Shown here: piece after piece, positions 33,330 to 55,327 of the stretch
Layout: each line of letters starts with the position of its first letter
Position numbering within the stretch: the stretch's first letter is position 1
Origin: Bdellovibrionales bacterium
Lineage (GTDB): Bacteria > Bdellovibrionota > FAC87 > UBA2466
Length of the DNA stretch: 55,327 nucleotides
Direction of reading: 5' to 3'
Assembly: GCA_005776395.1 (NCBI GenBank)
Contig: SXPJ01000052.1
Span: 1 to 55,327 of the forward strand
Notes under the pieces: generated by a model
Seen by the model: the letters and a program-made list of their open reading frames with translations, nothing else
What the model was told of the DNA's origin: nothing
Databases searched by the model: none
Position numbers and translations under genes: made by a program

Positions 33330-34364
33330 TTAAGGGACGTTAATGGTTTCTAAAAGTTGATAAATGACATCATCAGTTGAAAAACCTCTAGCTTCAGCAT
33401 CGAAATTTAAGATAAGACGGTGTCTTAAAATATCATGGGCTATTGATTTAATATCATCTGGAGTTACAAATGTTCTTTGCTCGAACAATGCACTGACTCT
33501 CGCAGCTCTGATTAAGAAAAGAGAGGCTCGTGGTGAAGCTCCAATTTGAATTAAGGAGCGTATATTATCTAAAGATTTTGGATCGGCCTCTTCTGTAGAT
33601 AAAAACTCTCCTTTTCTAGTTGCTAATATTAATCTTAAAACATAATTTTTGATTCTTTCATCTACATAGATTTTTTCTGCTCGTTCTCTAATTTCCAAAA
33701 TCCCCGAAGTTGAAAATACTTTTTGAGTTTCGGGAGCTCTTTGATTTGCCATTCGATCTAAAATAATTCTTTCCTCGGAGCGATTGGGATAGCCCACTTT
33801 TAACTTAAACATGAATCGATCTAATTGAGCTTCGGGCAGATGGTAAGTGCCCTCTTGTTCTATAGGATTTTGAGTGGCTAGAACTAAAAAGGGCTCAGCC
33901 AACTTAAAAGAGTGATCCCCTAAAGTGACCTGTTTCTCTGCCATGGCTTCTAGTAAAGCGCTTTGGACTTTTGCAGGGGCTCTATTGATCTCATCGGCAA
34001 GGACAAGGTTTGAGAAGATAGGCCCTTTTTTGGGGGTAAATTCACCTGTTCTTTCATGATAAACCATAGTTCCAATTAAATCTGAAGGTAGAAGATCTGG
34101 AGTGAATTGAATTCTTTGAAATTTAGCATCGAGAACGGTTGCTAGAGTTCTAACGGCCAGAGTTTTAGCTAGTCCTGGAAGCCCCTCGAGTAGAATATGC
34201 CCCCCTGTGACAAGGCCAGAAAGTAGAGCTCGATTCATTGCCTCCTGCCCTACAATAACTTTTCCCATTTCATCTAAAATCAGGGAAAGGGTTTTTGAAT
34301 CTTCGGTGAGTTGAGTACAGGTTTCAGGTGAAGGCGCAAGAGCACTCAAAGTGTTTTCTAGCAT
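33330..34364 (-). CDS. moxR: MoxR-family AAA+ ATPase
   Basis: 344 residues. Walker A GLPGLAKT (61-68), Walker B VLADEINRAP with Asp124/Glu125, sensor LATQNPIEQEGTYHLPEAQLDRF. MoxR ATPases act as chaperones that insert metal or mature the VWA proteins encoded beside them. First gene of the six-gene operon; AAGGA ribosome binding site. Its start lies only 20 bases from a 172-bp palindromic element, which must contain or block its promoter. Confidence 0.94.
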   Translation of the reverse strand: MLENTLSALAPSPETCTQLTEDSKTLSLILDEMGKVIVGQEAMNRALLSGLVTGGHILLEGLPGLAKTLAVRTLATVLDAKFQRIQFTPDLLPSDLIGTMVYHERTGEFTPKKGPIFSNLVLADEINRAPAKVQSALLEAMAEKQVTLGDHSFKLAEPFLVLATQNPIEQEGTYHLPEAQLDRFMFKLKVGYPNRSEERIILDRMANQRAPETQKVFSTSGILEIRERAEKIYVDERIKNYVLRLILATRKGEFLSTEEADPKSLDNIRSLIQIGASPRASLFLIRAARVSALFEQRTFVTPDDIKSIAHDILRHRLILNFDAEARGFSTDDVIYQLLETINVP

Positions 34365-34383
34365 AATTTTTCCTTGAGAATAT

Positions 34384-34555
34384 ATCTATAGCATTAACCA
34401 GTTAACCCCGCACCCGCTGGGCGTTTGCTTTTGTCGCAAAGCTTTGTTGTGCCTCCTGCGAGTACCAAGAGTACACGGTTGTCGGCGCGTCTTGTTTTGC
34501 TATCCAAAATCAACTCACCGATCTGGTACGGGGTTAACTGGTTAATGCTATAGAT
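34384..34555. repeat. 172-bp palindromic element with perfect 27-bp terminal inverted repeats
   Basis: Left arm 34384-34410 and right arm 34529-34555 are exact reverse complements over 27 bases (core GTTAACTGGTTAATGC). The interior is an imperfect continuation of the same palindrome with a direct GAGTAC-CAA-GAGTAC near the centre. No coding capacity. Each arm read outward ends in TGCTATAGAT, an extended -10-like sequence, pointing at moxR on one side and the ferredoxin gene on the other. Looks like a MITE/BIME-class non-autonomous element. Confidence 0.9.
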
Positions 34556-34619
34556 AGAGATTGGGAGGTGTGAGAAAATCTCTTAATATTATTATAGCCC
34601 AAAGGAGAGGTTGCTGCAG

Positions 34620-34907
34620 ATGCCCATTGTTACCTTTTTTCCATCTGGAAAAACCCTAGAAGTCGAAGAGGGAACCCTTCTTTTTGACGCAGCAAAAAGA
34701 GCTGGATTGCCAGTTGCGTCATCCTGCAGTGCCGATAATGTATGTGGGCGGTGTAATATGCAGGTTTTAGAGGGGGCTCAAAACCTATCATTTCAAGGGA
34801 CTGAAGAGAGTCGATTGTTGCGACGTGATAAAAACCCTCTGTCGGATCGGATTAGCTGCATGACCCGAGTTCTGGGGCATTGCATGGTAACCACCCGGTA
34901 CTGGTAG
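34620..34907 (+). CDS. 2Fe-2S ferredoxin
   Basis: 95 residues, plant-type fold. Cluster cysteines in SCSADNVCGRC and ISCMTRV, i.e. C-x5-C-x2-C plus a distal Cys, as in bacterial/adrenodoxin-like ferredoxins. VTFFPSGKTLEVEEGTLLFDAAKRAG is the usual N-terminus. ATG 34620 chosen; GGAGAGG lies 11 bases before it and only 2 before an alternative TTG at 34611. Redox partner unknown. Confidence 0.9.
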   Translation: MPIVTFFPSGKTLEVEEGTLLFDAAKRAGLPVASSCSADNVCGRCNMQVLEGAQNLSFQGTEESRLLRRDKNPLSDRISCMTRVLGHCMVTTRYW

Positions 34908-47419: not shown

Positions 47420-47445
47420 GTACAGGGTTAACGGTTAGTGCTATA
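47420..47445 (+). repeat. Solo copy of the palindromic-element arm
   Basis: GTACAGGGTTAAC then GGTTAGTGCTATA; relative to the right arm of the 172-bp element (34526-34552) it differs by one deletion and two substitutions. TGCTATATT is an extended -10-like sequence, and the next gene's ATG lies 27 bases downstream, so the arm may act as that gene's promoter. Confidence 0.5.
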
Positions 47446-47471: not shown

Positions 47472-47903
47472 ATGAGACAATTTTCGATGGGTTCAGGGCT
47501 TACTTTAGGAATTTTAGCCTCTGTGTTTGGATTGAGTTTAATGCTTATGGCAGAGACTTTGACTCCAGCACAGGAAAAAGCCCTAGCTGGAGCTATTGAG
47601 GAGCTGACCCATCCTGCAAAAAGAGCAGAGGCTTTGAAGAAGAGTCCTAAAGCTGCTGAATCTGACAAGTTTGTAAAGGAGGTTGGGGGGGAGTATTCAG
47701 AAGACCTTTATCAACTCGCAGGTAAATTAATGGAAAATTTGACTCGAGAAGGACATGGAGATCCTGACCAGATGGATCAGATTTTAGAAAAGGCTAGAAA
47801 AGATCCGGAGGGCTTTGCGAAAACATTTACCCCTGAGCAGAAGCGATTGTTAAAAGAGTTAGGACAAAAGATCGAAAAAAATAAAAAACCATCCTTGCCC
47901 TAA
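47472..47903 (+). CDS. Small secreted protein, unknown
   Basis: 143 residues. Signal peptide (GLTLGILASVFGLSLMLMA), mature part acidic/basic helical with TPAQEKALAGAIEEL and FTPEQKRLLKELGQKIEKNKK. AAAGAAAGG ribosome binding site. Suggests a helical periplasmic protein; no family recognised. Confidence 0.7.
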   Translation: MRQFSMGSGLTLGILASVFGLSLMLMAETLTPAQEKALAGAIEELTHPAKRAEALKKSPKAAESDKFVKEVGGEYSEDLYQLAGKLMENLTREGHGDPDQMDQILEKARKDPEGFAKTFTPEQKRLLKELGQKIEKNKKPSLP

Positions 47904-54547: not shown

Positions 54548-55186
54548 TCATATTGTGATCTCTCTACTTTTTTTTTCTGATTTAACAGGCCTTTGCGGCA
54601 AATAAACATCCCCTATTTCCGTCCCTTTCATAATCACGACCCCAGCGCCTATGAGTGTGTGAGAGGCAATCACAATATTATCTCTGAATGTTGAATTAGG
54701 CCCTAAAAAGCAGTTGTTATTTACTTTTGTAAAGCCAGAAATTACCACCTGAGAAGTAATAAAACAGTGGTCACCAATCTGCACATCATGACTAATCTGA
54801 TTCCCACTCCAAAGAACGTTGTTATTTCCGATTTTTACATAGGGTTGGATAGTATTGTCCTCTAGAATAAAATTATTATCACCCATAGGCTCTTCAGTTA
54901 GATAGCTGCACTTAGCACTTATATAATTGGGAAGTCGATATCCCATTTCCTTGGTTCTAATATAAAGTGATTCACGAACGCTGTTCATCTTACTATATCC
55001 CACAGCCACAAAAGCGAAAAACTCAGTGGGCGGGTAAGTTTCTCTTATGTTTTCAAAAGCAACTAAGGGTAAGTTTTCAAATTTAGAATCATTTATGTAT
55101 TGGCGATCAACAGCAAAGGCAATAACCTCATACTCAGTATCGTTGTCAAAATAAAGCCGCGCTAACTTTGCATTTGATGTATTACC
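54548..55186 (-). CDS. PglD/NeuD-type sugar acyltransferase, 5'-truncated
   Basis: Open from the junction near 55186. N-terminal part GNTSNAKLARLYFDNDTEYEVIAFAVDRQYI... and LPLVAFENI.. FAFVAVGYSKMNSVRESLY is the PglD sugar-binding domain; the C-terminal part is a left-handed beta-helix (ISHDVQIGDHCFITSQVVISGF, IVIASHTLIGAGVVIM). The first ~10 residues, including the GxG loop, are missing. An internal GTG at 55009 is not the true start. Likely acylates an amino sugar of the surface glycan. Confidence 0.85.
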   Translation of the reverse strand, partial: GNTSNAKLARLYFDNDTEYEVIAFAVDRQYINDSKFENLPLVAFENIRETYPPTEFFAFVAVGYSKMNSVRESLYIRTKEMGYRLPNYISAKCSYLTEEPMGDNNFILEDNTIQPYVKIGNNNVLWSGNQISHDVQIGDHCFITSQVVISGFTKVNNNCFLGPNSTFRDNIVIASHTLIGAGVVIMKGTEIGDVYLPQRPVKSEKKSREITI

Positions 55187-55327
55187 GGCCGGCGACCACG
55201 CCGTCGATGCCGCGATCGAGGTCGTGCACGTCGCCGGCGTGGGGCAGGCCGGCGCGCACCATCGTCGCCGCGAGGCGCTCGTCGCGGATGCCGCCGGCGA
55301 GCACGACGTCGAGGCGATCGGCGGGCA
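55187..55327. other. GC-rich foreign tail, likely assembly chimera
   Basis: The last ~141 bases are roughly 70% or more G+C against about 42% for the rest, and the change occurs within a few bases inside the PglD gene. On the minus strand it is open in a frame reading VLAGGIRDERLAATM, typical high-GC coding sequence, which runs into a stop just past the join. Not part of the gene it abuts. Confidence 0.85.

Follow-up and report, generated by a model that had tools for sequence, protein, structure and literature searches.

Between the divergent moxR and ferredoxin genes of this window, the 55,327-nucleotide stretch of DNA analysed here, lies a long palindrome with promoter-like ends, raising the question of whether it is a mobile element and what it does to the transcription of its two neighbors. 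The comparison described below suggests, with a probability of roughly 80%, that the feature is a lineage-specific MITE whose ends rebuild or create a -10 box at other genes, the copy in the window having landed in the moxR leader.

Structure and boundaries of the palindrome

The element carries 39-nt inverted repeats, 90% complementary, at 34383-34421 and 34518-34556, and no coding capacity was seen in it. The perfect 27-base arms of the original prediction are present as described, both ends read TGCTATAGAT outward, and the distances given to the neighboring genes hold, the moxR ATG (34362-34364) lying about 20 bp leftward and the ferredoxin ATG (34620) 64 bp rightward, against a predicted 20 and about 65 bases. 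The predicted span of 34384-34555 stands as a palindrome but not as a boundary, as the three outermost arm bases on either side (ATC/GAT) belong to the ancestral target. Because five congeners retain an empty moxR/ferredoxin site, the mobile unit can be delimited as TAGC...GCTA, and the outer arm bases are, on this comparison, target sequence that is palindromic by chance. The ends of the element are of the TATAGCACTAACC type, and all features are collected in Table 1.

Table 1. Coordinates of the element, its parts and its neighbors, numbered along the window.
Feature	Position	Strand	Evidence or remark
moxR (AAA_3/MoxR ATPase), first gene of the moxR-DUF58-VWA operon	33330..34364	-	
Outward TGCTATAGAT toward moxR, extended -10-like, TATAAT 4/6, no -35	34384..34393	-	sequence
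Left TA of the duplicated target	34387..34388	.	empty site, 5 congeners
Left terminal arm, read inward, consensus TATAGCACTAACCAGTTAACCCCGTA	34387..34412	+	arm alignment, genome scan
MITE body, 162 bp, TAGC...GCTA, near-complete palindrome	34389..34550	.	repeats, BLASTN copies, empty site
Right terminal arm, read inward	34527..34552	-	arm alignment, genome scan
Outward TGCTATAGAT toward the ferredoxin gene	34546..34555	+	sequence
Right TA of the duplicated target	34551..34552	.	empty site, 5 congeners
Ferredoxin promoter-like block TATTATAG...AAAGGAG	34590..34607	+	kept fully or largely in congeners, most altered in L067
TATAAT facing moxR, now beyond the far side of the element	34591..34596	-	61-63 nt ahead of moxR in each of the five congeners
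2Fe-2S ferredoxin-like gene (Fer2)	34620..34907	+	
Solo arm, one base deleted, outward end GCTATATT facing the ORF at 47472	47421..47445	-	arm scan

Insertion at TA targets

The divergent moxR/ferredoxin pair is kept in five congeners, with an intergenic region of about 90 bp there against 255 bp here. Alignment reveals a clean 164-bp insertion at a TA (ATATATC-TA-GATAGAG here, ATTTATT-TA-GATACAG in the congener), and the empty site retained by all five congeners indicates duplication of the TA target. Intergenic lengths at three further loci behave in the same manner, with 216 bp against 53 in the congener at L005, 170 against 1-4 at L006 and 278 against 113-115 at L008, each returning to roughly the congener spacing once the element's own length is taken off. 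The internally deleted mini forms of 56 and 60 bp at L045 (110 bp against 54-55) and L051 (178 against 113-125) are likewise clean insertions with a TA and an empty site.

Copies and their states in the host genome

The original prediction had proposed counting copies and mapping their sites by BLASTN. Run against the host genome (2.76 Mb, 106 contigs), this search returned 49 matches to the element, 10 of them full length and 80-94% identical and several partial, so the element is not a single-copy sequence. The arm motif occurs at 44 sites with at most three mismatches, against none for a reversed control pattern, and together these counts show that the palindrome is not a product of chance. 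An arm profile finds about 41 sites at E<0.01, the best in two congeners reaching E=0.4.

Three states coexist: full elements of about 166 bp with their TAs, internally deleted minis measuring 45-60 bp, and solo arms about 19-30 bp long. The related solo arm predicted near 47420 was recovered, 26 bp before the ORF that it faces. The idea that a solo arm is a mini whose other arm has eroded was rejected, such an eroded arm not being detectable against shuffles. Two copies are unusual in form: L011 (G000:C17:43482-43567) consists of the element core (query 46-133) without either arm, and L009 (G000:C9:1377-1542) has AT rather than TA on both flanks, within a palindromic target, CTTAAATTTAAG.

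The arms have diverged from the consensus by 7-8% and the tip by 3%, mostly through C>T and G>A changes, and no identical young copies occur among the copies of the host genome. The hairpin tip (alignment columns 68-98; 34454-34483 in the window copy), changing at 3% against 8% for the arms, is thus better conserved than the arms, the reverse of expectation for a bare transposon. A preference for divergent regions was considered and rejected, the 47 strong arms dividing 21/22/4 among divergent, tandem and convergent regions, close in a plain comparison of shares to the 45/41/14% of intergenic TA sites.

At four loci (L002, L006, L042 and L044) the TAG of the element or arm end serves as the stop codon of the adjoining gene. 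The rebuilt empty site of L006 has an in-frame TAG at the same reading frame. L002 (1272-1913; G000:C104 near 55162-55327) places the element between an RHH antitoxin, which terminates on the element's TAG, and a ParE-family toxin (PF05016), whose ORF now starts at an in-frame ATG inside the right arm (ATGCTATATAAT...).

Distribution and probable origin of the family

The arm motif was absent from the 13 relatives searched, five congeners among these, and the element from the 14 other genomes of the class. No homologues were found in plasmids and phages, the degenerate arm pattern had no exact match in the genome contigs searched, the host genome set aside, the core 20-mer had none in viral contigs, the host again excluded, and Rfam gave nothing credible for the element. 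By MoxR (85%), the closest relatives that bear a name are the MAGs Bdellovibrionales bacterium Baikal-deep-G133 and Deltaproteobacteria bin.416.

A resident mobiliser of IS630 type (PF13358) or of the DDE_Tnp_1 type (PF01609) was sought and rejected, neither profile matching in the host genome; PF13358 (DDE_3) matched in none of the 15 genomes of the class, with positive controls matching. Mobility is therefore inferred from comparison. With no identical young copies and neither transposase found, the family looks like a decaying, orphan MITE, and the original description of a non-autonomous element is well supported by its multiple copies, TA duplication, empty orthologous sites and apparent lack of coding capacity. 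We propose that a non-coding, TA-targeting palindrome was amplified in this lineage only, by a transposase now absent or not recognised, and that it has decayed since.

Element ends and -10 boxes at other loci

Read outward, an end gives ...GTTAACTGGTTAGTGCTA, to which the target duplication adds TA, and almost all insertions therefore leave TGCTATA plus two host bases. No -35 is recognisable in the arms, and a sigma70-type two-box scan of them gave no match. A perfect TATAAT is present at five of the nine solo arms facing a start codon, against a background of about 9% (intergenic TA sites followed by AT), and at none of the five facing a gene end. Among full, mini and partial copies, 3 of 24 start-facing ends form TATAAT, near background, indicating that the ends do not in general make promoters.

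Orthologous comparison places native -10 boxes at the element ends of several loci. Congeners carry TATAAT at an equal distance (±1 nt) from the start codon in 3/3 cases for the full copy L004, 3/3 for each of the solo arms L022 and L052, and 2/2 for the mini L045; at L033 one congener of two, the closest, has it at exactly 33 nt. A perfect native TATAAT within 1 nt was counted for 5 of the 17 testable start-facing ends against 0.45 expected from sliding the position (P 2.5e-5), and relaxation to five-of-six matches gave 6 against 1.85 (P 0.005), in tests designed after inspection of the data, on few loci, with an excess that fits targeting or survival alike. Target sites themselves often contain TATA, which can yield part of the coincidence signal. 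The empty site of L004, rebuilt from its own flanks, reads GGCTATAATAAAAAGCATG; on this reconstruction, the element entered at the TA inside the putative -10, and its end re-creates the box.

The comparison supports the view that element ends rebuild or replace a -10 box elsewhere in the genome. Since the ends read TGCTA and the target duplication contributes a TA, a -10 box hit by the element would come to read TGC-TATA-NN, whereby an extended -10 may be rebuilt or created, allowing such insertions to survive. A stronger version, in which the element targets -10 hexamers, or is tolerated chiefly there, through the TA of TATAAT, with ends rebuilding an extended TGC-TATAAT so that the element enters promoters without silencing them and leaves its 20-bp arms as permanent promoter parts, is tentative and on balance doubtful. 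Rebuilding of the -10, if true, explains how TA-targeting elements enter the TA-rich, sensitive part of promoters without penalty and how they turn into regulatory DNA.

Possible consequences for moxR and the ferredoxin gene

The window copy missed any -10 and landed in the moxR leader, where it sits between the conserved TATAAT and the start codon. Its most likely effect would be either a weak new start at the left end (TGCTATAGAT) or a long hairpin in the moxR 5' leader. Read on the opposite strand, the bases of the moxR-facing TATAAT form TATTATAG ahead of the ferredoxin gene, with the AAAGGAG of that gene after it, and as this promoter-like block is largely kept in congeners, the ferredoxin gene probably keeps its own promoter. 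Between the element and this block, at 34568-34583, GTGTGAGAAAATCTC with the dyad GAGAAAATCTC recurs in full or nearly so in the moxR/ferredoxin region of most congeners, as a possible operator.

The hairpin alternative, to which we assign slightly less than even odds, holds that no promoter was made and that moxR would be transcribed from the conserved upstream TATAAT into an mRNA with a 166-nt hairpin, possibly processed by RNase III. That box, conserved in five congeners and intact here beyond the insertion, has been shifted away from moxR, and the element may act as a hairpin in the leader; its consensus fold has 59 pairs at -69 kcal/mol, and a precedent is reported from N. meningitidis, where a Correia element that separates mtrCDE from its native promoter is processed by RNase III (PMC2649163). 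However, this TATAAT shares bases with the ferredoxin -10 of the opposite strand, leaving its use by moxR putative, and one-strand RNA selection was rejected, since G-U and A-C mismatches number 43 and 11 on one strand and 36 and 18 on the other, a difference without clear strand asymmetry that gives no sign of such selection.

Capture of both genes' transcription by the two ends, as the original prediction put it, is improbable for the window copy. What stands is that both ends read TGCTATAGAT outward, on the moxR side 20 bp before the ATG, and that at other loci ends fall on -10 boxes. Against it, moxR gains TGn TATAGA alone, a 4/6 match without a -35 and without a sigma70-type match, its older TATAAT is displaced rather than lost, and the ferredoxin block is intact. 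A far weaker reading still takes the arm for a site of host regulation or of a sigma factor, and each palindrome for a pair of such sites instead of the two ends of a transposon. It draws on the many solo arms that precede a start codon by 8-64 bp, but as a primary origin it is already contradicted by the absence of the motif from all 13 relatives, the clean TA insertions with empty orthologous sites and the 5 of 14 strong solo arms that face gene ends, and could survive only as later exaptation.

Comparison with known systems

The preferred reading, a lineage-specific MITE, agrees with the multiple copies bearing terminal inverted repeats and with the target duplication shown by the empty site. 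Many MITEs, though not all, have ends in common with an autonomous transposon; the PF13358 and PF01609 searches identified no such partner in the host genome. Derivation from IS630/Tc1-mariner would account for the TA duplication, but the related IS630 transposase was not found in the 15 class genomes. The family was found nowhere else in the collections searched, and its full, mini and solo-arm stages stand side by side; together with five congeners holding empty sites, this makes the promoter effect of the element readable by comparison.

ERIC/IRU of enterobacteria is likewise a long intergenic palindrome with TA at its ends, but has a 7-bp TIR (PMC2229807). RUP of Streptococcus pneumoniae is also an intergenic MITE at TA targets (PMC2229807); its ends are common to the resident IS630-Spn1, whereas no IS630-type DDE_3 gene was found here in genome or class.

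By design, the element is closest to the Correia elements (CREE/NEMIS) of Neisseria, which share ends beginning TATAG, insertion at TA, palindromic ends, no known transposase, and shorter deletion forms. Both bear a partial -10 at the end that is completed on insertion, known in CREE as the 'Black promoter' (PMC2649163), and for Correia elements, cleavage by RNase III of the hairpins that they form in mRNA leaders is also reported (PMC2649163, PMC2229807). It is not filed as one, as the arm has no match to the Correia patterns and its sequence is not theirs. The CREE arm pattern is TATAG[CT]GGATTAA...(CCGGTAC or TCAGGAC) (PMC2649163), whereas the arm here differs past TATAGC, reading TATAGCACTAACCAGTTAACCCCGTAC; in a comparison by eye with the consensus, only TATAGC agrees ungapped. 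Correia elements measure about 105-157 bp, against 166 and 45-60 bp here, and belong to another phylum. The present element is further set apart by an arm without a recognisable -35 and by ends that, set against orthologous sites, fall on native -10 boxes.
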